The position numbers and the translations under genes were made by a program. DNA of 64,000 nucleotides from Rubrivivax sp. Its GTDB lineage: Bacteria > Pseudomonadota > Gammaproteobacteria > Burkholderiales > Burkholderiaceae_C. Position 1 is the first letter of the stretch. The number at the start of each line of letters is the position of its first letter. The notes beneath the pieces were generated by a model. That model was not told the DNA's origin, searched no databases, and was given only the letters and a program-made list of their open reading frames with translations. Shown piece by piece: positions 27,396-64,000 of the stretch. The DNA lies in contig JAEUPB010000075.1 in NCBI GenBank assembly GCA_016789955.1, positions 124,001-188,000 on the forward strand, read 5' to 3'.

Positions 27396-27396
27396 C

Positions 27397-47708: not shown

Positions 47709-47727
47709 CGGGTGGTTCCTCCTGAGC

Positions 47728-47743
47728 TAGCCATTTTAGCCAT
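47728..47743 (-). promoter_or_regulatory. Tandem repeat operator before the hybrid antitoxin gene
   Basis: On the minus strand ATGGCTAAAATGGCTA is a direct repeat of ATGGCTA separated by two bases. It ends 19 bp before the antitoxin ATG, next to its ribosome-binding site. Phd/YefM-type antitoxins bind short repeated sites to repress their own operon, so this is a good candidate operator and its promoter. Confidence 0.5.
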
Positions 47744-47840
47744 TCGTCCTTCGGTACCGGCCGCGGCTGCGCCGCAGCGTTCCAACCCGCGCGTCGCGGC
47801 ACTACAGTCCCGCTGCCTCTGCCGCTCCCCGGCCCCGCCC

Positions 47841-48944
47841 ATGGACCCCATCCACCACACCATCGCCATCCAGCAGGTGCACGGCATCCTGCTGGGCGCG
47901 CGCCATCGTGGCCTGGCGGTGGAGCCGCTGCTGCTGCAGGCGGGCATCGCGCCGGCGCTGCTGGAGTCGCCGCTGGCGCGCATCTCGCAGCTCCAGTACG
48001 CGGCGCTGATCCGGCTGCTGCGGCGGCGGCTGCGCGACGAGCTCTGGGGGCTCACCGACCGCCCGCTGAAGCCCGGCACTTTCGCGCACGTGATGCGGCG
48101 TGGGGTGGGCTGCGCGACGCTCGGCGAGGCGCTGCGCGCGGGCCACGCGCAGTTGCACCTGCTGCTCGACGACTTCGTGCCGCGGCTGCAGGTGCACGGC
48201 GGCGTGGCGCGGCTGCGCTACGTGCCGCGGCGCGCGTCCGACACGCGGCTGGACTACGCGATCAAGGCCACGATGCTGCTGGGCTACGGCGCCGCGTCGT
48301 GGCTGGTGGCGCGGCGCATTCCGCTGCTCTCGGTGGACTACACCGACGGCCACCGCAGCGCCGAGACCTCGCGCGTCTACCAGGTGCCGGTGCGCTTCGG
48401 CGAGCCCTGCGTCGGCCTGTCGTTCGAGGCGCGCTGGCTCGAGCTGCCGGTGGTGCAGTCTCCGCAGAGCCTGCGCGACTGGCTGCGCGGCGCGCCGGCC
48501 AATCTGATCGTGCGCTACCGCGACAGCAGCAGCGTCACCGACCGCATCCGCCGCGTGCTGCGCAAGGGCCTGGGCGGCGAGATGCCGTCGCTGGACGACG
48601 TGAGCGCGATGCTCGCGGTGGCGCCGCAGACGCTGCGCCGCCGGCTGCAGGCCGAGGGCCGCGGCTTCCAGCAGCTGAAGGACGAGACCCGCCGCGACGC
48701 CGCCATCGAGTGGCTGCTGCAGACGCCGTGGCCGCTGCCCGAGATCGCCGCGCGGCTGGGCTTCTCGGAGGCCAGCACCTTCCACCGCGCGTTCAAGCAG
48801 TGGACGGGGCTGGCGCCGGGCGAGTACCGGCAGGTGCATGCGGCCGAGGAAGGGCGACGCGGCCCGGTGGCCTCCGTGGGCACCGTGGCATCGCGGCCGG
48901 GCGATGCGCCGGCCGCCAGCGTCCCGCAGACGCTGCTAGCCTGA
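47841..48944 (+). CDS. AraC-family transcriptional regulator
   Basis: 367 residues. The N-terminal two-thirds is the OruR/PF12625-type sensor domain (HGILLGARHRGLAVEPLLLQAG), and the C-terminal third is the AraC double helix-turn-helix with PSLDDVSAMLAVAPQTLRRRL and the second helix pair ending LGFSEASTFHRAFKQWTGLAPGEYR. Such regulators usually sense a metabolite and activate neighbouring genes; the convergent CoA transferase and Bug operon is the nearest catabolic set. Its stop overlaps that of the CoA transferase by nine bases. TACAGT lies 33 bp before the start as a possible -10. Confidence 0.9.
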   Translation: MDPIHHTIAIQQVHGILLGARHRGLAVEPLLLQAGIAPALLESPLARISQLQYAALIRLLRRRLRDELWGLTDRPLKPGTFAHVMRRGVGCATLGEALRAGHAQLHLLLDDFVPRLQVHGGVARLRYVPRRASDTRLDYAIKATMLLGYGAASWLVARRIPLLSVDYTDGHRSAETSRVYQVPVRFGEPCVGLSFEARWLELPVVQSPQSLRDWLRGAPANLIVRYRDSSSVTDRIRRVLRKGLGGEMPSLDDVSAMLAVAPQTLRRRLQAEGRGFQQLKDETRRDAAIEWLLQTPWPLPEIAARLGFSEASTFHRAFKQWTGLAPGEYRQVHAAEEGRRGPVASVGTVASRPGDAPAASVPQTLLA

Positions 48945-50150
48945 GCGGCCCGCCTGCACCACGCCCTGCGCGATCAGCTCGTCGATCTCGGCGTCGCTGC
49001 GGCCGCATGCGCGCAGCACCTCGCGCGTGTGCTCGCCCAGGTGCGGCGCGGCCGGCACGGGCTGCGCGTGCGCGCCATCGAAGCGTGCCGCCGGGCGTGG
49101 CATGCGGATGCGGCCGATGCCGGCGTGCGCCACCTCCGCGAAGGTGCCGTTGTGCATCACCTGCGCGTCGTGCGGCAGCTCGGCCTTTCGGTTGACGCGG
49201 CCGGCGGGCGCGCCTTCGGCAGCGAGCCGCTCGAGCCAGTGCGCCACCGGCTGCTGCGCGATGAAGCCCTCGGCCATTGCGCGCAGCTCAGCGTAGTGGC
49301 GGCGCCGCAGCGGGATCGTGGTGAAGCGCGGATCGACGATCCACTCCGGGTGCCCGAACGCGCGGCACATGCCGGCGAACTCGTCGTCCTGCGGCGTGAC
49401 CATCGCGAACCAGCCGTCGGCCGCGCGCCACAGCGCCAGCGTGCTGCCGTACTCGGGCACCGGCTCGGGCGGCTCGTCGAGGAACGCGTGGTTGTAGCCG
49501 GCCTCGGGCCACAGGAAGGCCACCGCGGCGTCGAGCATGTTCACCTGCACGCGGCGGCCGCCGCCGTCGCGGCTGCGCGCCAGCAGCGCGGCGGTGAGCG
49601 CCTGCGCCGCGGTGAGCGCGGTGACCTTGTCGCACATCAGCGTGCGCAGCAGCCGCGGCTCGCCGCTGCGCTCGTCGGGGTGCGCGTCGGCCATGCCCGA
49701 GACGGCCTGGATCACGGTGTCGTACACCCGCTCGCCGGCGCGCGGGCCGTCGGGCCCGTAGCCGGTGATCGAGAGCATGACGAGCCGCGGATGCTCGGCG
49801 TGCAGGCGCTCCCAGGGCAGGCCCAGTCGCTCCATCACGCCGGGGCGGAAGTTCTCCACCACCGCGTCGGCGCGCGCGATCAGCTCGCGCAGGATGTGCA
49901 GGCCCGCGGGCTGGCGCGCATCGAGCACGATCGAGCGCTTGCCGCGGTTCAGCGCGGCGTAGAGGCCGCTGAGGTCGCCCTTGGCAGGGCCGATCACGCG
50001 CGTCAGGTCGCCGCCGCGGCTCTCGACCTTGATCACCTCGGCGCCCTGGTCGGCGAGCATCCCGGTGGCCATCGGCCCCGAGACCACGGTGGAGAGGTCG
50101 AGGATGCGCAGGCCCGCCAGCGGGCGGCTCGCGTCCGGGACGGTGCTCAT
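48936..50150 (-). CDS. Family III CoA-transferase (CaiB/BaiF)
   Basis: 404 residues. The start LAGLRILDLSTVVSGPMATGMLADQGAEVIKVE and ENFRPGVMERLGLPWE are strong signatures of family III; the region RTLMCDKVTALTAAQALTAA carries the Asp that forms the mixed anhydride. The enzyme moves CoA between organic acids without ATP. It lies ten bases behind the Bug receptor gene on the same strand, so a receptor plus CoA activation of the bound acid is likely. Donor and acceptor unknown. Confidence 0.92.
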   Translation of the reverse strand: MSTVPDASRPLAGLRILDLSTVVSGPMATGMLADQGAEVIKVESRGGDLTRVIGPAKGDLSGLYAALNRGKRSIVLDARQPAGLHILRELIARADAVVENFRPGVMERLGLPWERLHAEHPRLVMLSITGYGPDGPRAGERVYDTVIQAVSGMADAHPDERSGEPRLLRTLMCDKVTALTAAQALTAALLARSRDGGGRRVQVNMLDAAVAFLWPEAGYNHAFLDEPPEPVPEYGSTLALWRAADGWFAMVTPQDDEFAGMCRAFGHPEWIVDPRFTTIPLRRRHYAELRAMAEGFIAQQPVAHWLERLAAEGAPAGRVNRKAELPHDAQVMHNGTFAEVAHAGIGRIRMPRPAARFDGAHAQPVPAAPHLGEHTREVLRACGRSDAEIDELIAQGVVQAGRSG

Positions 50151-50160
50151 CGCCGCGCCG

Positions 50161-51168
50161 CTACGGCTGATCGACCTTGATGTTGGCCGCGCGGATCGCC
50201 CGCGCGAAGATCTCGCCGTCGGCGCGGATGGCCTGCGCCAGCTGCTCCGGCGTGCTGCCCACCGGCTCCTGCCCGAATTCGAGCATGCGGTTGCGGATGT
50301 CGTCGGTGCGGATGGCCCGCGCGATGCCGTCGGAGAGCTTGGCCACGATGTCCTTCGGCGTGCCGGCCGGCGCCAGCACCATGAAGAAGCCCACCGGCTC
50401 GAAGCCCTTGTAGCCGAGTTCGAGGAACGTGGGCACGTCGGGGAACACGGTGGCGCGCTGCACGCCGGTCATCGCCAGCACCTTGGCCTTGCCCGCCTGC
50501 GCCAGCGGCCGCAGCGTGGCGGTGTCGAGGATCGCCGCCGACACCTGGCCGCCGAGCAGGTCGGTCACCATCGGTGCCGCGCCCTTGTAGGGGATGTGGG
50601 CCAGGTCGAGCTTGGCGGCGAGGTTCAGCGTCTCGCCGAAGATGTTGGCCGAGGTGCCCTGGCCGAACGACGCGTAGCTGTGCTTGCCCGGGTTGCGGCG
50701 CACCACCGCGATGAACTCCTCCAGCGTGTTGGCCGGGAAGTTCGCGGCCACCGCCAGCGCCACCGCCGAGCGCGACAGCAGCGACACCGGTTCGAAATCC
50801 TTCTGGATGTCGAACGGCAGCTTCTGGTACAGCGCGTGGGCGTAGATGATGTTGGAGATGGTCAGGCCGATCGCATAGCCGTCTGGCGGCATCTTGGCCA
50901 TCTGCGAGATGCCCAGCCAGCCGGCGGCGCCGGGCCGGTTGTCGATCACCGGCGGCTGGCCCCAGTACTCCTGCAGCTTGCCGCCGATGCCGCGCGCCAG
51001 CACGTCGTTGCTGCCGCCGGGCGTGAACGGCACGATGATGCGGATCGGCTTGTTCGGGTAGTCCTGGGCCTGGGCCTGGGCAAGGGCCTCGTTCGGGGCG
51101 ATGGCGGGGGCCAGGCCCAGCGCCAGCAGGTGGCGGCGGCGCAGGGTCGCGAGGGCGGGCAGGGGCAT
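50161..51168 (-). CDS. Bug/TctC-type tripartite tricarboxylate receptor
   Basis: 335 residues from the ATG at 51168, with GGAGA upstream. Signal peptide RRRHLLALGLAPAIAPNEALAQ, then PIRIIVPFTPGGSNDVLAR, DNRPGAAGWLG and HIPYKGAAPMVTDLLGGQ, plus DVPTFLELGYKGFE. Longer in-frame starts upstream add Arg-rich sequence not seen in the family. First gene of the unit with the CoA transferase; its 190-bp leader holds two inverted repeats. Confidence 0.92.
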   Translation of the reverse strand: MPLPALATLRRRHLLALGLAPAIAPNEALAQAQAQDYPNKPIRIIVPFTPGGSNDVLARGIGGKLQEYWGQPPVIDNRPGAAGWLGISQMAKMPPDGYAIGLTISNIIYAHALYQKLPFDIQKDFEPVSLLSRSAVALAVAANFPANTLEEFIAVVRRNPGKHSYASFGQGTSANIFGETLNLAAKLDLAHIPYKGAAPMVTDLLGGQVSAAILDTATLRPLAQAGKAKVLAMTGVQRATVFPDVPTFLELGYKGFEPVGFFMVLAPAGTPKDIVAKLSDGIARAIRTDDIRNRMLEFGQEPVGSTPEQLAQAIRADGEIFARAIRAANIKVDQP

Positions 51169-51209
51169 CGTCGTCTCCGGTGTCGTTCGTCGGCGCAGGG
51201 CGCGCCGAT

Positions 51210-51234
51210 CCGCACGGGCGTGCAGGCCGTGCGG
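51210..51234. repeat. 8-bp inverted repeat in the Bug gene leader
   Basis: CCGCACGG and CCGTGCGG flank a nine-base loop, 42 bases upstream of the Bug start codon. It could fold in the leader mRNA or be a protein site; in GC-rich DNA such a stem may also be chance. Confidence 0.3.
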
Positions 51235-51286
51235 CGCGGATCTTTCGGCGTGCGGGGCCGGCTGGCAATGACGGAAGAGATGACGC

Positions 51287-51311
51287 GGCATTGACCAAAA
51301 ACGCCAATGCC
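51287..51311. promoter_or_regulatory. LysR-box-like inverted repeat upstream of the Bug/CoA-transferase operon
   Basis: GGCATTG and CAATGCC are separated by eleven bases, giving the T-N11-A layout typical of LysR-type binding sites. It lies about 120 bp before the Bug start, a normal distance for such activators. No LysR gene is in the window. Confidence 0.4.
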
Positions 51312-51360
51312 CGCAGGCGCTCCGGGATGAACCTCGTCCGTGGGGCCGAGAGCCGCGCCG

Positions 51361-51606
51361 TCAGGTGGACTTCCGGGCCGAGGGACGCGTCGCCTCGGCG
51401 CGTTCGAGCTTGTCCAGCAGCGCGAGTGCCCGGCCGGGATCGCCGCGGGCCGCCCGGGTCTCGAACCGCACGCGGGCGTCGTAGTTGGCGAGCGCCACCG
51501 TGGCCAGCTCGTCCATCAGCTTGTTGACGCTCACCGAGTTCGCCCGCGCCAGGGCCTTCAGGCGCTCGTGCTTGTCATCGGGCAGGCGGATGGTCAGGGT
51601 GGACAT
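51361..51606 (-). CDS. Ribbon-helix-helix antitoxin-like protein
   Basis: 81 residues. The start MSTLTIRLPDDKHERLKALARANSVSVNKLMDE is a textbook ribbon-helix-helix DNA-binding domain; the rest is a charged helix ending in basic residues that could wrap a toxin. It overlaps the stop of the PIN toxin by 13 bases, so it is translated after it. The pairing PIN plus RHH is a type II toxin-antitoxin module, here with the toxin gene first. Confidence 0.78.
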   Translation of the reverse strand: MSTLTIRLPDDKHERLKALARANSVSVNKLMDELATVALANYDARVRFETRAARGDPGRALALLDKLERAEATRPSARKST

Positions 51607-52028
51607 GGGAACAACTCCAGGCAGCGCTCGGGCGGCAGCACCCGCAGCATCGGAAACTTCAATTCGCCCCGCGTCACGTCGCGCAGGTTGCGCGTGACGA
51701 TCACGTCGGCCTGCGCCGCCACCGCCAGCTCGATGAGATGGTTGTCGGCTTCGTCGGGCAGGTTGGGCCGCCACGCGTAGAACACCTCGACCCATCGGCA
51801 GCGCGAAAGCAGGGCATCGAGCACCGCCTCACGGTCGCGGGGCCCGAGGACCGAGTGCTCGAACAACGCCGATCGGCCCATCACGTCCTCGTACTCCGCC
51901 AGGAGGGCAGGGCCGATCACCGGGAGGTAGGCGCCTCGCAGGCAGGCCCTCAACACCGCCCGCGCACTGCCCCCGCCGCGCAGCAGCGCCGCGACGAGGA
52001 TGTTGGTGTCGAGCACGATCGTCGGCAC
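51594..52028 (-). CDS. PIN-domain toxin
   Basis: 144 residues. PIN fold with the N-terminal VLDTNILVAALL (first Asp), LLAEYEDVM (Glu), LPDEADNHLIELAVAAQAD with the paired acidic residues and VTRNLRDV as the final acid. Such proteins are metal-dependent ribonucleases that cut tRNA or rRNA; the family name is putative toxin component. It is the first gene of the pair, with the RHH antitoxin overlapping its end. Confidence 0.85.
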   Translation of the reverse strand: MPTIVLDTNILVAALLRGGGSARAVLRACLRGAYLPVIGPALLAEYEDVMGRSALFEHSVLGPRDREAVLDALLSRCRWVEVFYAWRPNLPDEADNHLIELAVAAQADVIVTRNLRDVTRGELKFPMLRVLPPERCLELFPCPP

Positions 52029-52188
52029 GTGTCAATGCTAGCGTATGTGCTGTCACTTTCCACACCCAACGGTCCGGCGTGTGCGGCATCGGCGCGCCGG
52101 CGCGGCCCCCGGCCCTGAGCGCTTTCGCCACGCCCCCCGGTGCTTACCGCCATTGGAAGCGTTGCCCGACCTGCGGACACTGGCGAAC

Positions 52189-53732
<1,544 letters not shown>

Positions 53733-53736
<4 letters not shown>

Positions 53737-54167
53737 CGCCAGCGCTCAGCGACGACCCGCGCCAGGTGTTCGACCGCGTGCCGTTCATGCGGCTGCTGGG
53801 CCTGCAGCGCGAGCGCTCCGAAGGCGGGCGGGCGCGCCTGGCGCTGCCGCCGCAGCCGGAGCTGGGCAACGTGATCGGCGCGGTGCACGGCGGCGCGCTG
53901 GCGACGCTGCTGGACGTGGCGATGGCCAGCGCGGCCGTGTCGGCGCGCGACTTCGTGCAGACCGCCGTGACGCTGGCGCTGCACACGCAGTTCATCGCGC
54001 CGGGCACCGGCCGGCTCGTCGCCGACGCGCAGTGGCTGCACAGCGATGGCGACGTGGCCCATTGCCGCGCCACCGTGACCGACGGGCAGGGGCAGCTGGT
54101 GGCGCAGGGGCAGGGCACCTTCCGCTACCTGCCGCGGCCGCACGGCACGGCGGCGTCCCCGACCTGA
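53733..54167 (+). CDS. PaaI-type hotdog thioesterase
   Basis: 144 residues. VHGGALATLLDVAMA with the full HGG and Asp, then TLALHTQFIAPG. It overlaps the ligase stop by four bases. A cleanup thioesterase for CoA esters made by the ligase is the simplest role; which ester is unknown. Confidence 0.85.
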
Positions 54168-54201: not shown

Positions 54202-55023
54202 ATGCAGCTCGACCTCACGCAGTTCCGCGGCCGCCACGTGTTCGTGGCCGGCGGCACCACCGGCATCAACTACGGCATCGCCGAGGCGTTCGGGCGCGTC
54301 GGCGCTCGCGTGGCGGTGCTCAGCCGCTCGGCCGAGAACGTGGCCACCGCGCAGGCCCGCCTGCAGGCGCTGGGCGGCGAAGCGCTGGGCTGCGTCGGTG
54401 ACGTGCGGCAGCCGGCCACGGTGCAGGAGGCGATGGCCCGCGCGGTGGCGGCCTACGGCCCGATCGACGTGCTGGTGTCGGGCGCGGCCGGCAACTTCCT
54501 GGCGCTGGCGGCCGAGATGTCGCCCAACGCCTTCAAGACCGTGGTCGACATCGACCTGCTGGGCAGCTTCAACGTGCTGCGATCGGCGCACGAACACCTG
54601 CGCAAGCCCGGCGCCTGCGTGATCCAGATCTCCGCGCCGCAGGCCGACACGCCGACGCCGTGGCAGTCGCACGTGTGCGCGGCCAAGGCCGGCGTGGACA
54701 TGCTGACGCGCACGCTGGCGCTGGAGTGGGGCGGCGAGGGCATCCGCATCAACTCGATCGTGCCCGGCCCGATCGCCGACACCGAAGGCATCCGCCGCTT
54801 GGCGCCCACGCCCGAGGCCCTCGAGCGCATGACCGCGCGCGTGCCGCTGCAGCGCATGGGCCGCTGCGAGGACGTGGCGCGCTGCGCGCTGATGCTGGCC
54901 AGCGACTGGGGCAGCTACATCACCGGCGCGGTGATCCCGGTGGACGGCGGCCTGTCGCTGACCGGGCCGCGCGATTTCGCATCGGCCGCGGCCGCGGCCG
55001 CTGCGGCGCGGAGCCGCGCGTGA
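54202..55023 (+). CDS. Peroxisomal-type 2,4-dienoyl-CoA reductase-like SDR
   Basis: 273 residues. The cofactor loop is FVAGGTTGINYGIAE and the C-terminal LEWGGEGIRINSIVPGPIADTEGIRRL is the signature of mammalian DECR-type reductases. Unlike ordinary SDRs the active-site Tyr is absent: SHVCAAKAG has Cys where YxxxK has Tyr, while the Lys remains, as in DECR enzymes that use other residues. It should reduce 2,4-dienoyl-CoA with NADPH, needed for unsaturated chains. The next gene begins within its stop codon. Confidence 0.82.
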   Translation: MQLDLTQFRGRHVFVAGGTTGINYGIAEAFGRVGARVAVLSRSAENVATAQARLQALGGEALGCVGDVRQPATVQEAMARAVAAYGPIDVLVSGAAGNFLALAAEMSPNAFKTVVDIDLLGSFNVLRSAHEHLRKPGACVIQISAPQADTPTPWQSHVCAAKAGVDMLTRTLALEWGGEGIRINSIVPGPIADTEGIRRLAPTPEALERMTARVPLQRMGRCEDVARCALMLASDWGSYITGAVIPVDGGLSLTGPRDFASAAAAAAAARSRA

Positions 55024-55370
55024 AGGGCGGGCCCACGTCGAACCCCACCACCGGGCGTGCCGCCGCGGCGATCGACGCCGACCCCGGTGCCCCTGCGCCC
55101 GGCGACCGCGGCGCGATCGTCGCGCTGCTCGACCGCGCGATGGCGCAGGCCGCGCGCGAACGCGCCGGCGATTCGCGCGAGGCCGAGGCCGTCGACCTGC
55201 ACGTGAGCTTCCTGCGCCCAGTGGCCGGGCGCATCGTCGCCGAGGGCCGCGCCGTCGGTGGCGGCCGCTCGACCTGCTTCTGCGAGGCCCGCCTCGTCGG
55301 CGCCGGCGGCGACATCGCCGCGCAGGCGATGGGCACCTACCGCTACCGCGAGGCCGCCGCCGCGCCGTAG
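55020..55370 (+). CDS. Degenerate PaaI-like hotdog protein
   Basis: 116 residues, GTG start overlapping the previous stop (GTGA). The fold resembles PaaI thioesterases (LHVSFLRPVAGRIVAEGRAVGGGRS, then MGTYRYRE), but the active-site segment reads PGDRGAIVALLDRAM: the His-Gly-Gly is replaced by Asp-Arg-Gly. It may be a noncatalytic partner or have moved its chemistry. It is short for the family by about 20 residues. Confidence 0.72.
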   Translation: MKGGPTSNPTTGRAAAAIDADPGAPAPGDRGAIVALLDRAMAQAARERAGDSREAEAVDLHVSFLRPVAGRIVAEGRAVGGGRSTCFCEARLVGAGGDIAAQAMGTYRYREAAAAP

Positions 55371-55420
55371 CGCGGCAGCCCGCGCACCCACCACCGACTT
55401 CCGCACGAGGACCCCACCCG

Positions 55421-56623
55421 ATGAGCACCGCCCGCCTCCAGCGCCCCGTCCACGTCGTCGGCGTGGGCATGATTCCGTTCACCAAGCCCGGCGCCAGTGC
55501 GCCGTACACGCAGATGGGCGCGCAGGCCGCGTCGCTCGCGCTGGCCGATGCGAACCTCGACTACGCGCTCGTCGAGCAGGCCTACGTCGGCTACGTCTAC
55601 GGCGACTCCACCGCCGGGCAGGCGGCGCTGTACGGCGTGGGGCTGAGCGGCATCCCGATCTTCAACGTAAACAACAACTGCTCGACGGGCTCGTCGGCGC
55701 TGTTCCTCGCGCGGCAGGCGGTGGAGAGCGAGCAGGTGGAATGCGCGCTGGCGCTGGGCTTCGAGCAGATGCAGCCCGGCGCGCTGAAGAGCCACTGGGA
55801 CGACCGGCCGTCGCCGCTGGCGCGCTTCGCGCAGGCGATGACCGAGCACCAGGGCTACCAGGCTGACGCGCCGCGCGCGGCGCAGTTCTTCGGCGGCGCC
55901 GGGCGCGACTACATCGCGCAGTACGGCATCCGCAAGGACACCTTCGGCCGCATCGCGGTGAAGGCGCGCCAGCACGCGGCCCGCAACCCGCTGGCGGTGT
56001 TCCGCCAGACGCTGACGCTCGACGAGGTGATGGCCGCGCCGACGGTGTTCGACCCGCTGACGCGCTACCAGTGCTGCCCGCCCACCTGTGGCGCGGCGGC
56101 GGCCATCGTCTGTTCTGCCGACTTCGCGCAGCGCCACGGGCTGGACCGCACGGTGGTGATCGCCGCGCAGGCGATGACTACCGACCGGCCGCAGGCCTTC
56201 GACGCCGACGACATGCGCCAGGTGGTGGGCGTGGACATGGCGGTGCGCGCCGCCCGGGCCGTGTACGAGGCCGCAGGCATCGGGCCCGAGGCGATCGACG
56301 TGGTGGAGCTGCACGACTGCTTCACCGCCAACGAGCTGCTCACCTACGAGGCGCTGGGCCTCACGCCCGAAGGCACCGCCGAGCGGTTCATCCTCGACGG
56401 CGACAACACCTACGGCGGCAAGGTCGTGACCAACCCGTCGGGCGGGCTGCTCTCCAAGGGCCACCCGCTGGGCGCCACCGGCCTGGCGCAGTGCTACGAG
56501 CTGACTCAGCAGCTGCGCGGCCGCGCCGAGCAGCGGCAGGTGGAAGGCGCGCGCATCGCGCTGCAGCACAACCTCGGCCTGGGTGGCGCGTGCGTGGTGA
56601 CGCTGTACCAGGCCGTGCACTGA
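55421..56623 (+). CDS. SCP-x/lipid-transfer-type thiolase
   Basis: 400 residues. The nucleophilic Cys87 is in NVNNNCSTGSSALF; the C-terminal half carries VELHDCFTANELLTYEALG and NPSGGLLSKGHPLGATG with the catalytic His. These HDCF and SKGHPLGATG motifs are specific to the SCP-x/lipid-carrier thiolase group that also includes aldolase-like Ltp enzymes of sterol side-chain degradation. It therefore may cleave a 3-keto or 3-hydroxy branched-chain acyl-CoA rather than plain fatty acyl-CoA. Confidence 0.9.
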   Translation: MSTARLQRPVHVVGVGMIPFTKPGASAPYTQMGAQAASLALADANLDYALVEQAYVGYVYGDSTAGQAALYGVGLSGIPIFNVNNNCSTGSSALFLARQAVESEQVECALALGFEQMQPGALKSHWDDRPSPLARFAQAMTEHQGYQADAPRAAQFFGGAGRDYIAQYGIRKDTFGRIAVKARQHAARNPLAVFRQTLTLDEVMAAPTVFDPLTRYQCCPPTCGAAAAIVCSADFAQRHGLDRTVVIAAQAMTTDRPQAFDADDMRQVVGVDMAVRAARAVYEAAGIGPEAIDVVELHDCFTANELLTYEALGLTPEGTAERFILDGDNTYGGKVVTNPSGGLLSKGHPLGATGLAQCYELTQQLRGRAEQRQVEGARIALQHNLGLGGACVVTLYQAVH

Positions 56624-56637
56624 GGAGGCCCGGACCC

Positions 56638-57087
56638 ATGCTCGACCGCCGCCACATCGGCACCGAATTCCCGCCGTACACGGTGGACGTGGAGCGCGGC
56701 CGGCTGCGCTTCTTCGCCAAGGCCACCGGGCAGACCGACCCGGTGTACGTCGACGACGAGGCGGCGCGCGCCGCCGGCCACCCGGGTCTGCCCGTGCCGC
56801 CGACCTTCTTCTTCTGCCTGGAGATGGACGGCCCGAATCCCGGCGCGATGCGCGAGCTGCTCGGGCTGGACCTGCGGCGCGTGCTGCACGGCGAGCAGGG
56901 CTTCACGTACCACCGGCTGGCGCATGCAGGCGAGCGGCTCACGTTCCGCCAGCGCATCGAGGACATCTACGACAAGAAGGGCGGGGCGCTGGAGTTCATC
57001 GTGCGCCGCACCGCGGTGAGCGACGCACAGGGCGCTGCTGTGGCCGAGCTGCGCGCCGTCACCGTCTACCGGAACCCGGCACCATGA
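56638..57087 (+). CDS. MaoC-like hydratase subunit without catalytic Asp/His
   Basis: 149 residues, GAGGAGG at 56623. It has the hotdog fold and the HadA/FAS1-like N-terminal dehydratase sequence GTEFPPYTVDVERGRLRFFAKATG. The catalytic Asp and His of the TGDxNPxHxD motif are replaced: the segment is GQTDPVYVDD, with Gln32 and Tyr37 at those positions. In mycobacterial HadAB the A subunit is likewise inactive and supports the B subunit. It overlaps the next gene by four bases, consistent with a heterodimer. Confidence 0.85.
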   Translation: MLDRRHIGTEFPPYTVDVERGRLRFFAKATGQTDPVYVDDEAARAAGHPGLPVPPTFFFCLEMDGPNPGAMRELLGLDLRRVLHGEQGFTYHRLAHAGERLTFRQRIEDIYDKKGGALEFIVRRTAVSDAQGAAVAELRAVTVYRNPAP

Positions 57088-57494
57088 AGACGCTGCCCGA
57101 CTGGAGCGCGCTGCAGGTGGGCGATGCGCTGCCCACGCTGGAGCTGCCGCCGCTGACGCGGCACACGCTGGCGCTCTACTGCGGCGCCAGCGGCGACCAC
57201 AACCCGATCCACGTCGACATCGACTTCGCGCGTTCGGCCGGCCTGCCCGATGTCATCGCGCACGGCATGCTCTCGGCGGCGTGGGTGGCGCGCGTGCTCA
57301 CCGACTGGGTACCGCAGCACGCCATCCGCTCGATCGACATCCGCTTCGCCGCGATGACCGGCGTGGGCGAGCGCATCACCTGCACCGGCCGCATCACCGA
57401 GAAGCTCGACCGCGCCGTGCGCGTGGCGCTGCAGACGGCCAACGCCGACGGCGCGGTGAAGCTCACCGCGGAAGCGGTGCTCGCGTGGCCATGA
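57084..57494 (+). CDS. MaoC-like (R)-specific enoyl-CoA hydratase, catalytic subunit
   Basis: 136 residues. GASGDHNPIHVD holds the catalytic Asp38 and His43; IAHGMLSAAWVARVL is the typical helix after them. Enzymes of this family add water to trans-2-enoyl-CoA to give (R)-3-hydroxyacyl-CoA. Translational overlap (ATGA) with the inactive subunit before it points to a HadAB-like pair. The product would suit the MFE-2-like dehydrogenase further down. Confidence 0.9.
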   Translation: MKTLPDWSALQVGDALPTLELPPLTRHTLALYCGASGDHNPIHVDIDFARSAGLPDVIAHGMLSAAWVARVLTDWVPQHAIRSIDIRFAAMTGVGERITCTGRITEKLDRAVRVALQTANADGAVKLTAEAVLAWP

Positions 57495-57516
57495 ACAACA
57501 CACCCTGGAGACACGC

Positions 57517-58347
57517 ATGAGCACACTCAAGCTCGACGGCAAGGTCGCATTGGTATCCGGCTCGGGGCGCGGCATCGGGCGCGAGATCGCGCTGAAGCTC
57601 GCCAGCGAGGGCGCCAGAGTCGTCGTCAACGACCTCGACGCCGAACCCGCCGCGCAGACCGTGGCCGAGATCACCGCCGCCGGCGGGCACGCGCTGGCCT
57701 GCACCGGCAGCGTCACCGAGCCGGGCTTCGCAGAGCGCTTCGTCGCCGCGGGCGTGGACGGTTTCGGCGGCCTGGACATCATCGTCAACAACGCCGGCTA
57801 CACCTGGGACACCGTGATCCAGAAGATGAGCGACGAGCAGTGGGAGGCGATGCTCGCCGTGCACCTGACGGCGCCGTTCCGCATCCTGCGCGCCGCTTCC
57901 GGATTCATCCGCGAGGCCGCGCGGCGCGAGGCCGACGAGGACCGCGAGGTGTTCCGCAAGGTCGTCAACATCTCGTCGACCTCGGGCGTGTTCGGCAACG
58001 CCGGGCAGGCCAACTACGCCGCGGCCAAGGCCGGCATCAACGGCCTCACGCGCGCGATGGCCAAGGAGTGGGGGCGCTACAAGGTCACCGTCAACAGCGT
58101 GGCCTTCGGGCTCATCCGCACGCGGCTCACCGAGGCCGATGCAAACGCCGGCGCGACCATCGACGTGGAAGGCCGGCAGATCCGCGTCGGCGTGAATCCG
58201 CAGATCCTGAAGACGGCCGAGTCGATGATCCCGCTGGGCCGCGGCGGCCACCCGCACGAGGCGGCCGGTGCCGTGTACCTGTTCTGCATCCCCGAGAGCA
58301 ACTACGTCACCGGTCAGGTGCTGGTCTGCGGCGGGGGCCGGCCATGA
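57517..58347 (+). CDS. SDR, FabG-like 3-oxoacyl reductase/dehydrogenase
   Basis: 276 residues. SGSGRGIGREIALKLA cofactor loop, NNAGYTWD, catalytic Ser in NISSTSGVFG, Tyr/Lys in NYAAAKAGI and a C-terminal YVTGQVLVCGGG. A longer insertion between residues 130 and 150 (FIREAARREADEDREVFRK) is unusual. It may act on (R)- or (S)-3-hydroxyacyl-CoA. Four-base overlap with the acyl-CoA dehydrogenase that follows. Confidence 0.88.
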   Translation: MSTLKLDGKVALVSGSGRGIGREIALKLASEGARVVVNDLDAEPAAQTVAEITAAGGHALACTGSVTEPGFAERFVAAGVDGFGGLDIIVNNAGYTWDTVIQKMSDEQWEAMLAVHLTAPFRILRAASGFIREAARREADEDREVFRKVVNISSTSGVFGNAGQANYAAAKAGINGLTRAMAKEWGRYKVTVNSVAFGLIRTRLTEADANAGATIDVEGRQIRVGVNPQILKTAESMIPLGRGGHPHEAAGAVYLFCIPESNYVTGQVLVCGGGRP

Positions 58348-59498
58348 TGCCCCGCCGCGCGTGGGAGGGCGACGACGTCGCGCTGCTGCGCGAAAACGCC
58401 CGCCGCTTCTTCCAGCGCGAATGCGTGCCCAACGAGCTGCGCTGGCGCGCGCAGCATCACGCCGAGCGCGGGCTGTGGAACAAGGCCGGCACCGCGGGCC
58501 TCCTGTGCGCCAGCATCCCCGAGGCCTACGGCGGCGGCGGCGGCAGCTTCGTGCACGAGGCCGTGCTGTGCGAGGAGCAGTGGTACTGGCTTTCGTACGC
58601 GTTCAGCAACAACGTGCACAGCGGCATCGTCGCGCACTACCTGCTGGCCTACGGCCGCGAGGACCAGAAGCGCCGCTGGCTGCCCAAGATGGCCACCGGC
58701 GAGCTGGTCTCCGCCATCGCGATGACCGAGCCCGGCGCCGGCACCGACCTGCAGCGCATCCGCACGCAGGCGCGGCGCGACGGCGACGCCTACGTGATCA
58801 ACGGCAGCAAGATCTTCATCACCAACGGCCTGCACGCCGACCTGGTGTGCGTGGCGGTGAAGACCGACGCCGCGGCCGGCTCCAAGGGCATCTCGCTGGT
58901 GATGGTCGAGACCGCGGGGCTCGCGGGCTTCCGCCGCGGGCAGCCGCTGGACAAGATCGGCCAGAAGCTCAACGACACCACCGAGCTGTTCTTCGACGAT
59001 GTGCGCGTGCCGGCCGAGAACCTGCTCGGCGACGCCGAAGGGCAGGGCTTCGTGCAGCTGATGCAGCAGCTGCCGCGCGAGCGGCTGATCATCGCCGTGG
59101 GCTCGGTGGCGCTGATGCGCCGCGCGATCGACGAGACGCTGGCGCATGTGCGCGAGCGGCAGGTGTTCGGCCAGCCGCTATTGAAGCAGCAGAACACGCG
59201 CTTCGTGCTGGCCGAGTGCGAGACGCAGGCGCGCGTGGCGCAGGCCTACGTCGACGACTGCATCGCGCGGCTGCAGGCCGGCACGCTCGACGTGCCCACC
59301 GCGGCGATGGCCAAGTGGTGGACCACCGACACCGCCTGCAAGGTGGTGGACGAGTGCGTGCAGATGTTCGGCGGCTACGGCTACATGAACGAGTACCCGA
59401 TCGCCCGGCTGTACACCGACGTGCGCGTGGGCCGCATCTACGGCGGCGCCAACGAGGTGATGAAGGAGCTGATCGCGCGCGAGCTGGAGCGCGGTTGA
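58344..59498 (+). CDS. Acyl-CoA dehydrogenase
   Basis: 384 residues, full family length. MTEPGAGTDLQRIRT and FITNGLHADLVCVAVKT are the FAD-binding signatures; the C-terminal MFGGYGYMNEYPIARLYTDVRVGRIYGGANEVMKELIAREL closes with the substrate-shaping helix. The catalytic Glu position near IYGGANEVM looks kept. ATG overlaps the previous stop. It should create the 2-enoyl-CoA for the MaoC pair. Confidence 0.93.
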   Translation: MMPRRAWEGDDVALLRENARRFFQRECVPNELRWRAQHHAERGLWNKAGTAGLLCASIPEAYGGGGGSFVHEAVLCEEQWYWLSYAFSNNVHSGIVAHYLLAYGREDQKRRWLPKMATGELVSAIAMTEPGAGTDLQRIRTQARRDGDAYVINGSKIFITNGLHADLVCVAVKTDAAAGSKGISLVMVETAGLAGFRRGQPLDKIGQKLNDTTELFFDDVRVPAENLLGDAEGQGFVQLMQQLPRERLIIAVGSVALMRRAIDETLAHVRERQVFGQPLLKQQNTRFVLAECETQARVAQAYVDDCIARLQAGTLDVPTAAMAKWWTTDTACKVVDECVQMFGGYGYMNEYPIARLYTDVRVGRIYGGANEVMKELIARELERG

Positions 59499-59521
59499 TC
59501 CCGCGCCGGCCCCGAACCACG

Positions 59522-61114
59522 ATGCCCACCACCGCGCACCTCGCCCACTGGCCCGCGCACGTGCCGCGCGAGCTGCTCGTGCCGCCGCTCACGCTGCCGC
59601 AGGCGCTCGCCGGCAGCGCCGCGCGTCGGCCGGCGCACGCGGCCATCGTCTTCGAGCGCTGCACCCTCACCTACGGCGACCTGGCCGCACGCGTCGATGC
59701 GCTGGCCGGTTGGCTGCAGCAGCGCTGTGGCGTGCACGCGGGTGACCGCGTGCTGCTGCTGTCCCAGAACCGCCCCGCCTGGGTGGTGGCGGCCTACGCG
59801 GTGCTGCGCGCCGGCGCGGTGCTCGTGCCGGTGAACCCGATGTGCAAGCGCGGCGAGATCGCCTTCCACGCCGACGACAGCGGCGCACGTGTGGCGCTGG
59901 TCAGCGAAGAGCTGATGGACGAATTGACGCAGGACTCGCCCTGCGCCGTCCTGCCGCTGGCCGACACCTTGGCCGCCGCGCGTGCCGCTGCGCTCGCACC
60001 CGGCCCGATGCCCGCCGACCCCGACGCGCTGGCCGTGCTGCCGTACACCTCGGGCACCACCGGCCAGCCCAAGGGCTGCCGGCATACCCATGCGACGCTG
60101 CGCGCGTCGCTCGCCGCCTCCGCCGTGTGGAAGCGGCTCGACGAACACAGCGTGGTGCTCGCCGTGGCGCCGCTGTTCCACATGCTCGGGCTGCAGAACG
60201 GCATGAACCTGCCGCTGATGCTGGGCGCCACCGCGGTGATGATGACGCGCTGGCATGCGGCCACGGCCGCCGAGCTGATCGAGCGCCACCGCGTCACCGC
60301 GTGGTCGGCGCCGCCGGCGATGGTGATCGACCTCTACGCCCAGCCCGGCACTGCGGCGCGGGACTTCTCGAGCCTGAAGCTGCTGTCCGGCGGCGGCGCC
60401 GCGATGCCCGAGGCGGTGGCCGCGATGCTGCGCGAGCGCCACGGCCTGGTCTACGAGGAAGCCTACGGCCTGACCGAGACTGCGTCGTTCCTGCACGCCA
60501 ACCCGCCGCAGCGCTGCAGGCGCCAGTGCCTGGGCATGCCGACGCAGGGTGTGCAGTCGATGGTGGTCGACCCCGAGACGCTGGCCGAGCTGCCCGCGGG
60601 CGAGGTGGGCGAGCTGCTGACGCACGCGCCGCAGCTGATGCTCGGCTACTGGCAGCGGCCCGACGCCGATGCCGAGGCCTTCGTGACGATCGGCGGCCGG
60701 CGCTGGTTCCGCACCGGCGACCTGGCCCATGTCGACGACGAGGGCTACTACTTCCTGCGCGACCGGCTCAAGCGCATGGTGAACGTGTCGGGCTACAAGG
60801 TCTGGCCGGCCGAGGTGGAAAGCCTGATGTACGCGCACCCGGCGGTGCACGAGGCCTGCGTCATCGCGGTGCCCGACCCCGAGCCCGGCCGCGATGGCCG
60901 CGAGCGCGTGCAGGCCGTGGTGGTGCTGAAGCCGCAGGCGCGCGGCACGGTCGACGAGGCGGCGCTGATCGCCTGGTGCCGCGAGCGCATGGCCGTCTAC
61001 AAGGCGCCGCGCGCGGTGGCCTTCGTCGATGCACTGCCGAAATCGGGCACCGGCAAGATCCAGTGGCGCGAGCTGCAGGAGACCTATGCGCGGGCAGCCG
61101 TTGCCAGCGGATGA
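59522..61114 (+). CDS. Acyl-CoA synthetase (AMP-forming)
   Basis: 530 residues. A3 LPYTSGTTGQPKGCRHTH, A5 YGLTETAS, A7 WFRTGDLAHVDD, hinge-region RLKRMVNVSGYKVWP and A10 Lys in SGTGKIQW. This second ligase differs clearly from the one at 52189, so the two may activate different acids. It is separated by 23 bp from the dehydrogenase gene. Confidence 0.92.
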   Translation: MPTTAHLAHWPAHVPRELLVPPLTLPQALAGSAARRPAHAAIVFERCTLTYGDLAARVDALAGWLQQRCGVHAGDRVLLLSQNRPAWVVAAYAVLRAGAVLVPVNPMCKRGEIAFHADDSGARVALVSEELMDELTQDSPCAVLPLADTLAAARAAALAPGPMPADPDALAVLPYTSGTTGQPKGCRHTHATLRASLAASAVWKRLDEHSVVLAVAPLFHMLGLQNGMNLPLMLGATAVMMTRWHAATAAELIERHRVTAWSAPPAMVIDLYAQPGTAARDFSSLKLLSGGGAAMPEAVAAMLRERHGLVYEEAYGLTETASFLHANPPQRCRRQCLGMPTQGVQSMVVDPETLAELPAGEVGELLTHAPQLMLGYWQRPDADAEAFVTIGGRRWFRTGDLAHVDDEGYYFLRDRLKRMVNVSGYKVWPAEVESLMYAHPAVHEACVIAVPDPEPGRDGRERVQAVVVLKPQARGTVDEAALIAWCRERMAVYKAPRAVAFVDALPKSGTGKIQWRELQETYARAAVASG

Positions 61115-61138
61115 CATGAGACCAGAGGAGTTCGAACG

Positions 61139-62047
61139 ATGATGCTCAGGGACAAGGTGGTGGTGGTGACCGGTGCCGGCGGCGGCATCGGCCGCGAGAT
61201 CGCGCTGGCGATGGCGGCCGAAGGCGCGCGCGTGGTGGTGAACGACATCGGCGCGTCGGTGGGCGGCCAGGGGCACGACGCCGGGCCGGCCCGGCGCGTG
61301 GTGGACGAGATCCGCGCCGCCGGCGGGCAGGCGGTGGCCAACACCGACAGCGTCAGCGACGGTGCCTCGGCTGCCCGCATCGTCGGCACCGCGATCGACG
61401 CCTGGGGCCGCGTGGACGTGGTGGTGAACAACGCCGGCATCCTGCGCGACCGCTACTTCCACAAAATGAGCGCCGAGGAGTTCGACTCGGTCATCCAGGT
61501 GCACCTGTACGGCAGCTTCCACGTCAGCCGCGCCGCCGCGCCGCACTTCAAGGAGCAAGAGAGCGGCTGCTACATCCACATGACGAGCACCTCGGGCCTG
61601 GTGGGCAACTTCGGGCAGGCCAACTACGCGGCGGCCAAGCTCGGCATCGCGGCGATGTCGAAGTCGATCGCGCTGGACATGCACAAGTTCAACGTGCGCT
61701 CGAACTGCATTTCGCCGTTCGCGTGGAGCCGCATGATCGGCTCCATCCCCACCGAGACGCCCGAGGAACAGGCGCGTGTCGAACGGCTCAAGCAGATGAC
61801 GCCGGCCAAGATCGCGCCATTGGCCGTCTGCCTGGCCAGCGACGACGCGAAGGACGTCACCGGCCAGATCTTCGCCGTGCGCAACAACGAGATCTTCCTG
61901 ATGAGCCAGCCGCGCCCGCTGCGCAGCGTGCAGCGCGGCGAGGGCTGGACGCCGCAGAGCGTGGCCGCGCATGCGCTGCCGGCGCTGAAGGCGAGCTTCT
62001 ACGCGCTCGATCGCTCGGCCGACGTGTTCTGCTGGGATCCGGTGTGA
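61139..62047 (+). CDS. MFE-2-type (R)-3-hydroxyacyl-CoA dehydrogenase-like SDR
   Basis: 302 residues, GAGGAG eight bases before the ATG. It matches the dehydrogenase domain of peroxisomal multifunctional enzyme 2: VTGAGGGIGREIA, NDIGASVGGQGHDAGPARRV, VVVNNAGILRDRYFHKMS, GNFGQANYAAAKLGI and FAWSRMIGSIP. In MFE-2 this domain oxidises (R)-3-hydroxyacyl-CoA and is fused to a MaoC hydratase; here hydratase and dehydrogenase are separate genes in one cluster. A C-terminal 70-residue extension has MSQPRPLRSVQRGEGWTP. Confidence 0.87.
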   Translation: MMLRDKVVVVTGAGGGIGREIALAMAAEGARVVVNDIGASVGGQGHDAGPARRVVDEIRAAGGQAVANTDSVSDGASAARIVGTAIDAWGRVDVVVNNAGILRDRYFHKMSAEEFDSVIQVHLYGSFHVSRAAAPHFKEQESGCYIHMTSTSGLVGNFGQANYAAAKLGIAAMSKSIALDMHKFNVRSNCISPFAWSRMIGSIPTETPEEQARVERLKQMTPAKIAPLAVCLASDDAKDVTGQIFAVRNNEIFLMSQPRPLRSVQRGEGWTPQSVAAHALPALKASFYALDRSADVFCWDPV

Positions 62048-62087
62048 TCCGCCGACCCCGGACCCCCACCCCTTCGAGGAGACCTGA

Positions 62088-63065
62088 TTGAACCGATGTT
62101 CCCTCGGCCGCCGTGCCGTGCTCGCGACGCTGGCCGCCACGGCCGTCGCCGCCCCCGCCTGGGCCCAGACCACCTACCCGGGCCAGCCGGTGAAGCTCAT
62201 CGTGCCGTACCCGGCCGGTGGCGCCACCGACATCCTCGGCCGCACGCTGGCGGCGAAGCTGCAGGAGGCCTGGGGCCAGACCGTGCTGGTGGAGAACCGC
62301 GCCGGCGCGTCCGGCACCCTCGGCAACAACGCCGTGGCCAAGGCGGCGCCCGACGGCTACACGGTGCTGGTCGCGATCACCGCGCTGATCCAGCAGCCCT
62401 CGCTGATGGACAAGCTGCCCTACGACCCGCTGAAGGACTTCGCGCCCGTCACGATGATTGCGCGCAGCCCGAGCATGCTGGCGGTGCCGCTGTCGTCGCC
62501 GGCGCGCACGCTGAAGGAGTTCGTCGAGCTGATGAAGAGCCAGCCCGGCAAGCACAGCTTCGGCAGCTACGGCGCGGGCACGTCGTCGCACATCCAGGGC
62601 GCGCTGCTGAACCTGCAGGCGGGGCTGGACCTGGTGCACGTGCCGTTCGCCGGCGCCGCGCCGCTGCTGACCAACCTCGTCGGCGGCCAGCTCTCGTCGG
62701 CCTTCATCGACAGCGCCTCGGCGCGCGCACAGCTCGCCAACATCCGGCCGTTGGCCGTGACCGGCACCGCGCGCATGCCCGGCCTGCCCGACGTGCCCAG
62801 TTTCCAGGAGCTGGGCTACCACTCGTACGACCCCTACGGCTGGTTCGGCGTGTTCCTGCCCGCGGCCACGCCGCCGGCGGTGGTGCAGAAGCTCTCCGAC
62901 GACGTGAACCGCATCCTGCGCCTGCCCGACGTGACGGCGCGCATCGAGGGGCTGGGCCTGCAGGTGGGCGGCGGGCGGCCCGAGGAGTTCCAGCAGACCG
63001 TGCAGCGCGAGCTGGCGCTGTACGCGAAGATCATCCGCGAGGCGAACATCCGGCTGACGCCCTGA
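62088..63065 (+). CDS. Bug/TctC-type tripartite tricarboxylate receptor
   Basis: 325 residues from the TTG at 62088, which has GAGGAGA six bases upstream; no ATG alternative precedes the signal peptide (GRRAVLATLAATAVAAPAWAQ). Family motifs PVKLIVPYPAGGATDILGR, ENRAGASGTLGNN, HVPFAGAAPLLTNLVGG and DVPSFQELGYHSYD are clear. It is the third orphan Bug receptor in the window and lies inside the acyl-CoA cluster, suggesting that the cluster's substrate is an organic acid caught in the periplasm. Confidence 0.91.
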   Translation: MNRCSLGRRAVLATLAATAVAAPAWAQTTYPGQPVKLIVPYPAGGATDILGRTLAAKLQEAWGQTVLVENRAGASGTLGNNAVAKAAPDGYTVLVAITALIQQPSLMDKLPYDPLKDFAPVTMIARSPSMLAVPLSSPARTLKEFVELMKSQPGKHSFGSYGAGTSSHIQGALLNLQAGLDLVHVPFAGAAPLLTNLVGGQLSSAFIDSASARAQLANIRPLAVTGTARMPGLPDVPSFQELGYHSYDPYGWFGVFLPAATPPAVVQKLSDDVNRILRLPDVTARIEGLGLQVGGGRPEEFQQTVQRELALYAKIIREANIRLTP

Positions 63066-63130: not shown

Positions 63131-64000
63131 ATGCATGCCGAGACCGACCCGCACCAGGAGATCCGCGACGCGGTGCGGCAGCTGTGCCGCCAGTTCCCGG
63201 ACGAGTACTTCCGGAAGGTGGACGAGCAGCGCGCCTACCCCGAGGCTTTCGTCGACGCGCTGACGAAGGCCGGCTGGATGGCCGCGCTGATTCCGCAGGA
63301 CTACGGCGGCTCGGGCCTGACGATGGCCGAGGCCTCGGTGATCATGGAGGAGATCAACCGCTCCGGCGGCAACTCCGGCGCCTGCCACGGGCAGATGTAC
63401 GTGATGAACGCCATCGTGCGCAGCGGCTCGGCGGCGCAGAAGCAGCGCTACCTGCCGAAGATCGCCACCGGCGAGCTGCGCATCCAGTCGATGGGCGTCA
63501 CCGAGCCCACCACCGGCAGCGACACGACGAAGCTCAAGACGATGGCCGTGAAGAAGGACGGCCGCTGGGTCATCAACGGCCAGAAGGTCTGGATCTCGCG
63601 CATCCAGCACAGCGACATGATGATCCTGCTGGCGCGCACCACGCCGCTGGCCGAGGTGCAGAAGCGCTCCGAGGGGTTGAGCTGCTTCCTCGTCGACCTG
63701 AAGCAGGCCGTCGGGCACGGCCTGACGGTGCGGCCGATCCTCAACATGGTCAACCACGAGACCAACGAGCTGTTCTTCGACAACCTCGAGATCCCCGAGG
63801 AGAACCTGCTCGGGCCCGAGGGGCGGGGGTTCAAGGTGTTGCTCGACGGGCTGAACGCCGAGCGCACGCTGATCGCCGCCGAGTGCATCGGCGACGGCTA
63901 CTGGTTCATCGACCGTGCGACGAAGTATGCGAACGAGCGTGTCGTGTTCGGCCGCAGGATCGGCCAGAACCAGGGCGTGCAGTTCCCGATCGCCGAGGCC
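63131..64000 (+). CDS. Acyl-CoA dehydrogenase (3' end cut by window)
   Basis: 290 codons are readable from the ATG at 63131, which has GGAGAG upstream, and the frame is open to the last base. Seen are the N-terminal helical domain (LIPQDYGGSGLTMAEASVIMEE), the FAD region SMGVTEPTTGSDTTKLKT and VWISRIQHSDMMILLARTT, and the start of the C-terminal helical domain with FGRRIGQNQGVQFPIAEA. The catalytic Glu lies beyond the window. Fourth acyl-CoA dehydrogenase here. Confidence 0.92.
   Translation, partial: MHAETDPHQEIRDAVRQLCRQFPDEYFRKVDEQRAYPEAFVDALTKAGWMAALIPQDYGGSGLTMAEASVIMEEINRSGGNSGACHGQMYVMNAIVRSGSAAQKQRYLPKIATGELRIQSMGVTEPTTGSDTTKLKTMAVKKDGRWVINGQKVWISRIQHSDMMILLARTTPLAEVQKRSEGLSCFLVDLKQAVGHGLTVRPILNMVNHETNELFFDNLEIPEENLLGPEGRGFKVLLDGLNAERTLIAAECIGDGYWFIDRATKYANERVVFGRRIGQNQGVQFPIAEA

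Follow-up and report, generated by a model that had tools for sequence, protein, structure and literature searches.

The window analysed here, a stretch of 64,000 nucleotides from Rubrivivax sp. (positions 124001-188000 of contig JAEUPB010000075.1, C84 in our numbering, from a genome that is 79.6% complete and divided into 116 contigs), contains a run of 13 genes on the forward strand which would form a catabolic operon for the β-oxidation of acyl-coenzyme A (acyl-CoA) thioesters. The run starts at position 52189 and extends to around 64291, its final 0.3 kb lying beyond the window end and, according to the coordinates of the open reading frames (ORFs), adjacent genes either overlap by 4 bp or are separated by gaps of 14-65 bp. 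It opens with an acyl-CoA ligase (ligase 1), a PaaI thioesterase, a short-chain dehydrogenase/reductase (SDR) of the 2,4-dienoyl-CoA reductase (DECR) type (SDR1), a second hotdog protein, an SCP2-type thiolase, and an inactive and an intact MaoC protein, and it continues with SDR2, a dehydrogenase of the long-chain acyl-CoA dehydrogenase (LCAD) type, ligase 2, the MFE-2-type SDR3, a Bug protein and acyl-CoA dehydrogenase 2 (Table 1).

A first-pass annotation had described, at 54202..63065, a peroxisome-like cluster combining an acyl-CoA dehydrogenase, a two-gene MaoC hydratase, an MFE-2-type dehydrogenase, a DECR-type reductase and an SCP-x-type thiolase. These parts are real ORFs that match the named families in Pfam, NCBIfam or among solved structures, and they do lie in a single same-strand cluster, although its limits had been drawn too narrowly. 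Downstream, the genes for a siderophore-interacting protein, a phasin-like protein and a TamA/TamB pair, recognised by ORF reading only, indicate that the run seems to end at dehydrogenase 2. The 13 genes are presumably co-transcribed; a scan of the run for promoters and terminators gave nothing exceeding the shuffled expectation, which neither supports nor breaks an operon.

Table 1. Genes of the run and neighbouring features, in window coordinates
Feature	Position	Strand	Evidence
AraC-family regulator, start uncertain	47802..48944	+	Pfam Arabinose_bd 1.3e-33, HTH_18 3e-17
Family III CoA-transferase, neighbour, probably outside the operon	48936..50150	-	Best solved match succinate-hydroxymethylglutarate CoA-transferase, 211 bits
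Acyl-CoA ligase 1 (AMP-forming), opens the run	52189..53736	+	Pfam AMP-binding 7e-80
PaaI-type hotdog thioesterase	53733..54167	+	Pfam 4HBT 9e-10; TIGR00369 above cut-off
SDR1 of the DECR type, likely a 2,4-dienoyl-CoA reductase using NADPH	54202..55023	+	Best solved match 4fc6
Second hotdog thioesterase-like gene, GTG start, 4 bp overlap with SDR1	55020..55370	+	Pfam 4HBT 1e-7; below TIGR00369 cut-off
SCP2/SCP-x type thiolase	55421..56623	+	6hsj 444 bits; NF006102 682 bits
MaoC N-type subunit, predicted inactive	56638..57087	+	Pfam FAS1_DH_region 1.6e-44
MaoC subunit, complete hydratase-2 motif SGDHNPIH	57084..57494	+	Pfam MaoC_dehydratas 1e-20
SDR2, NAD-type, probable 3-hydroxyacyl-CoA dehydrogenase	57517..58347	+	YxxxK and β2 Asp residues; tree
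Acyl-CoA dehydrogenase 1, LCAD type	58344..59498	+	Best solved match long-chain acyl-CoA dehydrogenase 8w0t, 2e-101
Acyl-CoA ligase 2, long-chain type	59522..61114	+	NF006181 718 bits, cut-off 705
SDR3, MFE-2-type 3-hydroxyacyl-CoA dehydrogenase	61139..62047	+	2et6 373 bits; tree
Bug/TctC-type periplasmic solute-binding protein	62088..63065	+	Pfam TctC 9e-63
Acyl-CoA dehydrogenase 2, ends at about 64291, past the window	63131..64000	+	Pfam Acyl-CoA_dh domains; ORF in locus L001 ending at 2291

Catalytic residues and closest families of the enzymes

The enzyme classes encoded in the run are well supported by family matches and active-site residues, and gene order is conserved. A contig scan for relatives of the thiolase gave at least 582 confirmed cases, of which the best 80 loci were kept, and all counts over 80 rest on these. 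Genes were counted in them by tblastn with identity thresholds set by ourselves and by ORF clustering, many loci being shortened by contig ends or by the 10 kb flank.

The thiolase matches 6hsj, an SCP2-thiolase of type 1, with an E-value of 4e-132, exceeds the NF006102 cut-off of 436 bits, and retains all four catalytic residues (Cys86 of NNNC, His297, His347 and Cys390, in zero-based numbering), which confirms the SCP-x-type thiolase described previously. The Cys motif, HDCF, GGLLSKGHP and GGAC are each found in 81/81 members of this family, that of the window included. No C-terminal SCP2 sterol-carrier domain was found on the 400-residue window protein, in which Pfam reveals thiolase domains only.

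The two MaoC genes are adjacent, with a 4 bp overlap, and carry the motifs TGQTDPVY (the first gene) and SGDHNPIH (the second). In 51 aligned relatives' members of the inactive type, which are those recovered by ORF clustering (tblastn detects the gene in 70/80 loci), Gln (50 members) or Glu (1) stands in place of the catalytic Asp and Tyr (51) in place of the His, while the intact type conserves Asp, Asn and His in 68/68 aligned members. These residues support the idea that the pair consists of one catalytic and one non-catalytic subunit. Among solved structures, the inactive protein finds its best match in ChsH1/ChsH2 (1e-8), and the intact one in the HadB-type MaoC chain 4rv2_B, which it resembles better than ChsH.

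SDR1 is closest to the peroxisomal 2,4-dienoyl-CoA reductase 4fc6 (196 bits, 6.7e-57), with mitochondrial DECR as the next solved match. The absence of the YxxxK tyrosine is a hallmark of DECRs, and in the SDR1 family this Tyr is replaced in 45/45 members (Val in 41, Ala in 4), the Lys being kept. The Ser-Arg pair that follows β2 (Ser in 44/45, Arg in 45/45) is the one expected of NADPH enzymes, and SDR1 is thus likely NADPH-dependent. Besides, it exceeds the cut-off of the generic SDR subfamily NF005752 (389 bits against 321).

SDR2 and SDR3 fell into one family of 90 members in the ORF clustering, with the Tyr and Lys of YxxxK in 89/90 (one gap) and an Asp at the end of β2 in 90/90. In SDRs this Asp denotes a preference for NAD, and its presence suggests NAD use and an oxidative role. 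The best solved match of SDR3 is 2et6, a (3R)-hydroxyacyl-CoA dehydrogenase that we take to be yeast MFE-2 (373 bits over two domains), followed by human HSD17B4 (1zbq, 215 bits) and by 3qlj (197 bits), a short-chain dehydrogenase whose label does not mention MFE-2. Among chains labelled as oxoacyl reductases, the best is 7sub, with 160 bits. A tree built from 18 rows, some of them partial, groups SDR3 with the two domains of 2et6 with a moderate support of 93/90, and places the three FabG-type chains included outside the group formed by SDR3 and MFE-2. Thus, the MFE-2-type dehydrogenase proposed in the first-pass annotation, as opposed to a member of the FabG clade, is borne out by SDR3. The acyl-CoA dehydrogenase proposed with it corresponds to dehydrogenase 1 and is of the LCAD type.

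The metabolism of 2-methyl branches needs an α-methylacyl-CoA racemase. A racemase family is found in 46/80 relative loci, the motif GHDxNY being present in 45/46 of its members, and the member of locus L046 gives an E-value of 1e-61 with MCR, a racemase of solved structure. Of 17 homologues in the window's genome, 8 were fetched, and two of these, encoded on contigs C15 and C2, show the racemase motif. The CaiB-family neighbour of the run (48936..50150) was considered for this activity and rejected, taking into account that it scores 81 bits with MCR and 211 with a CoA-transferase.

This last gene and that of a second Bug/TctC receptor, both on the opposite strand, lie in the interval (48936-51291) that separates the AraC regulator from the operon. 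Just upstream of the operon, also on the reverse strand (51361-52028), a PIN-domain protein (PIN_3, 2e-24) and a small ribbon-helix-helix-like partner, which is below cut-offs, constitute a toxin-antitoxin-like pair.

Relatives of the operon in chromosomes and plasmids

The operon is not peculiar to this Rubrivivax genome and occurs widely in Burkholderiales, the best named relatives of the thiolase belonging mostly to Comamonadaceae. Close homologues or family members were found in the 80 loci (in brackets, in the 52 of them that measure 20.5 kb or more) as follows: inactive MaoC in 70 (44), intact MaoC in 69 (44), the dehydrogenase in 68 (50), the AraC family in 62 (40), ligase 2 in 61 (44), SDR2 in 59 (39), DECR in 46 (35), the racemase family in 46 (33), SDR3 in 40 (32), a DUF35/SCP-x family in 37 (29), and ligase 1 in 25 (21). 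Since the thiolase, both MaoC proteins, SDR2, the dehydrogenase and the ligase recur together in most of the 80 loci, their clustering is more than chance. The commonest exact order 3' of the thiolase (MaoC, MaoC, SDR, dehydrogenase, ligase) appears in 11/52 loci, and many others differ from it by an antisense or missed ORF. In Variovorax loci, a ligase about 71% identical to ligase 1 is located upstream of the thiolase. As exceptions, three Bordetella loci and that of Cupriavidus CH34 possess the thiolase and SDR2 but lack the two MaoC genes; SDR2 adjoins the thiolase both in CH34 and in Pseudosulfitobacter.

In the DUF35/SCP-x family of the relatives' loci, a paralogue of SCP-x is linked to a DUF35 domain, which in L046 is recognised by Pfam as zf-ChsH2 and OB_ChsH2_C. 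Met occupies the position of the nucleophilic Cys in 35/35 members of at least 380 residues, and Tyr that of a catalytic His in 34/35 (one gap), residues that are as expected of an Ltp2-like retro-aldolase. Neither a DUF35 domain nor a Cys-less SCP-x was found among the 13 genes of the window's run. On contig C32 of the same genome (41353-42501), a protein 61% identical to the Cys-less SCP-x of the relatives also lacks that Cys. This second set spans C32:41353-52932. About 8 kb from the Cys-less SCP-x it includes a fused biotin carboxylase-carboxyltransferase of 1102 amino acids (47517-50825) and, at 50901-51791, a second MFE-2-type SDR with 68% identity to SDR3; another SCP-x-like protein (51829-52932) also belongs to it.

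The distribution of the thiolase is patchy, the gene being present, with the window's genome included in each count, in 9/274 genomes of the class at 1e-80 and in 45/200 of the family at 1e-150. In the 17/200 family genomes, again including the window's, whose thiolase is at least 73% identical, a close SDR3 appears in 16/17 and a close racemase in 9/17; in the remaining 183 genomes, these appear in 17 and 0, respectively. AtuA, a protein of acyclic terpene utilisation, is encoded in 17/17 genomes with the close thiolase and in 88/183 of the others, a suggestive association in which genome size is uncontrolled.

Plasmids of other lineages also carry parts of the operon; in two plasmid records that have no gene table (H1 and H4), the genes were located by tblastn. 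Plasmid pRJH1 of Rhodococcus pyridinivorans encodes the thiolase (71% identity), the MaoC proteins (57% and 50%), SDR2 (66%), the dehydrogenase (60%), ligases, and a CaiB/BaiF protein that is 40% identical to the racemase. Its dehydrogenase was matched by tblastn in two pieces (15029-16155 of locus L115) outside the gene table, and may be broken. In a conjugative plasmid of the alphaproteobacterium Pseudosulfitobacter, a thiolase of 65% identity and an SDR2 of 71% identity lie within an operon whose annotation includes AtuA and biotin carboxylases. These plasmid copies make transfer between lineages likely.

Proposed function and alternatives

It is proposed, with moderate confidence, that the run is a conserved catabolic operon for the (R)-specific β-oxidation of methyl-branched, partly unsaturated acyl-CoAs, most likely those of isoprenoid-type acids, which fit best as the substrate class. 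Thus, the Bug protein would bind the acid outside, the two ligases would activate it to a CoA ester, and the LCAD-type dehydrogenase would introduce a double bond, giving 2-enoyl-CoA. This compound would then be hydrated by the MaoC heteromer to (R)-3-hydroxyacyl-CoA, a configuration suggested by what is known of the families, oxidised by the NAD-type SDRs, and finally cleaved by the SCP2-type thiolase, yielding acetyl- or propionyl-CoA. SDR1 would remove double bonds at even positions, and 2-methyl branches would be processed with a racemase, which in many relatives is encoded within the locus; in this genome, two motif-bearing proteins are encoded elsewhere. It is the order of these steps, as well as the substrate, that we infer. 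Double bonds at even positions call for a dienoyl-CoA reductase, and 2-methyl-3-oxoacyl-CoA for an SCP2-type thiolase; with the need for a racemase, the set as a whole fits acids that are both methyl-branched and unsaturated. In PMC8538451, a dehydrogenase, a dienoyl-CoA reductase, a thiolase and a racemase are described as candidate steps for polyisoprene-derived acids, and racemase mutants are cited as having lost growth.

Several observations weigh against this proposal. The same article ascribes the dienoyl-CoA reductase of one strain to the flavin (Old Yellow Enzyme) family, and not to the SDRs. SDR1 itself remains below the cut-off of the NCBIfam dienoyl-CoA reductase NF005811 (186 bits against 318), so the DECR-type reductase of the first-pass annotation is backed by the best solved match and the lost tyrosine, but not by this model. 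The MaoC pair does not reach the curated HadA and HadB cut-offs (67.5 against 180 and 71.1 against 203 bits) and resembles ChsH1/H2 and HadB only distantly, so that it seems to represent a lineage of its own with that design; residues and adjacency sustain the two-subunit hydratase claimed earlier, and these models do not. An assignment of SDR2 to MFE-2 is not supported, given that this protein forms its own group in the tree (support 72/79), apart from both FabG-type and MFE-2 rows, and scores 100 and 120 bits with the two domains of 2et6 compared with 138-152 for three FabG-type chains; its sequence is not clearly that of either MFE-2 or FabG, and the claim of an MFE-2-type enzyme is thereby restricted to SDR3. 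No racemase was found in the window locus. Within the 200-genome sample, the thiolase is found at 1e-150 in 0/2 of the other genomes of the same genus, which indicates an accessory trait. With respect to terpenes, AtuA is encoded in only 12/28 genomes with a more distant thiolase, the association over all 45 thiolase genomes is weak (29/45 versus 76/155, p 0.09), and the AtuA gene of the window's genome is located on another contig, where no carboxylase was found near it in the ORFs read after a composition filter. Neither AtuA nor a carboxylase was recognised in the 13-gene run.

An alternative would be the degradation of sterol or bile-acid side chains, as performed in Mycobacterium and Comamonas testosteroni by igr-like genes, which encode a ligase, a dehydrogenase, a MaoC pair, an SDR and an SCP-x, the final retro-aldol cleavage being due to a DUF35-linked SCP-x. 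The resemblance of the inactive MaoC to ChsH1/ChsH2 points in this direction, as does the DUF35/SCP-x family in 37/80 loci, with the Ltp2-like Met for Cys in all testable members; moreover, PMC12502768 reports the use of MaoC/DUF35/Ltp2 genes for cholate side chains in strain TA441. However, the intact MaoC is closer to HadB than to ChsH, the dehydrogenase beside the pair is LCAD-like and does not look like one of a ChsE1/E2-type pair, and both a true thiolase and a DECR-type enzyme are present. The ChsE1/E2 dehydrogenase pair is part of the design of steroid side-chain operons and, to our knowledge, the steroid scheme includes no step for a DECR-type enzyme. A search with NF009479, presumably a ketosteroid dehydrogenase model (the search output does not name it), gave 0/26 genomes above the cut-off, with matches below it in 25/26 and in 11/14 controls, and is uninformative on this point. 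Taken together, a steroid substrate seems unlikely.

About equally improbable is a general auxiliary operon for ordinary long-chain unsaturated fatty acids, working alongside a FadB-type set. Such a set, of the (S)-type, does exist elsewhere in the window, as had been pointed out for 18.4-23.4 kb, with 3HCDH and ECH domains and a classical thiolase, its FadB-like protein scoring 469 bits against the NCBIfam FadB cut-off of 870. It is part of one run (18472-28024) that encodes a FadB-type enzyme, a peptidase, the thiolase, a hydrolase, a thioesterase, an acyl-CoA dehydrogenase, an SDR and another thioesterase, of which the peptidase, the hydrolase and the first thioesterase were identified by ORF reading only. 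The LCAD-type dehydrogenase, the long-chain ligase and the DECR-type reductase would suit straight chains, but, from what is known of the families, the SCP2-type thiolase, the racemase family and the DUF35/SCP-x family would be unnecessary for them, and the patchy presence of the thiolase in the family and the class speaks against a general function. Finally, alicyclic or aromatic acids, such as 2-aryl- or cycloalkyl-propionates cleaved beside the ring by SCP-x, are a very improbable substrate, for although Bug proteins and CoA-transferases are common around clusters of this kind and dehydrogenase 1 scores 222 and 216 bits on two cyclohexanecarboxyl-CoA dehydrogenase models (far below the 575 and 650 bits that these models require), none of the 13 genes was recognised as coding for ring cleavage or for a monooxygenase, and the DECR and the long-chain-type ligase point to chains.

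Position among known systems

Every part of the operon thus proposed for methyl-branched acids belongs to a known family and its layout resembles that of known (R)-specific catabolic operons; it is an uncharacterised member of these and not a new system. No published description of it was found in a literature search out of whose reach most subscription journals lay. With the igr-type operons (M. tuberculosis; ORF40-44 of C. testosteroni TA441) it shares the heteromeric MaoC and, in many relatives, the DUF35-linked Cys-less SCP-x, whereas the window's run has a true thiolase, an LCAD-type dehydrogenase, a DECR-type enzyme, two ligases and only distantly related MaoC proteins, and does not unite ChsE1/E2, ChsH1/H2 and Ltp2 plus DUF35 in one operon. 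The mycobacterial HadAB dehydratase is also encoded by two genes, with the catalytic residues on one subunit, but the window's pair falls below the models of that enzyme and has catabolic surroundings. As for the atu/liu operons, one of them, on the Pseudosulfitobacter plasmid, includes the thiolase-SDR2 pair, but the AtuA and carboxylase genes have no recognised counterpart in the window's run.

The comparison with mammalian peroxisomal branched-chain β-oxidation (SCPx, MFE-2, DECR2, AMACR) is based on the thiolase, SDR1 and SDR3, which match SCP2-thiolase, peroxisomal DECR and MFE-2-type chains, and on the racemase family, which is found in relatives of the operon only. By contrast, the hydratase of the operon has two subunits and is not fused to the dehydrogenase, the thiolase lacks the SCP2 lipid-binding domain, and an acyl-CoA dehydrogenase replaces the acyl-CoA oxidase used by animal peroxisomes. 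The description of the set as peroxisome-like rests on the families in common, to which the relatives add a racemase; parts of the set are also found on the Rhodococcus plasmid and within the terpene operon of an alphaproteobacterium. A bolder suggestion, which we consider doubtful, is that this mobile and repeatedly rearranged operon would be a complete free-living counterpart of the animal peroxisomal pathway for 2-methyl-branched acids (racemase, dehydrogenase, hydratase, MFE-2-type dehydrogenase, SCP2-type thiolase and DECR2-type reductase), used on unsaturated polyisoprenoid acids and provided in many members with a second, retro-aldol cleavage mode, and that the peroxisomal set may have been assembled from a bacterial source of this type.

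Knowledge of the substrate would show how Burkholderiales use branched plant or isoprenoid acids. It would also furnish a bacterial model for the related enzymes of human peroxisomes, and permit a test of the origin of the peroxisomal enzymes.

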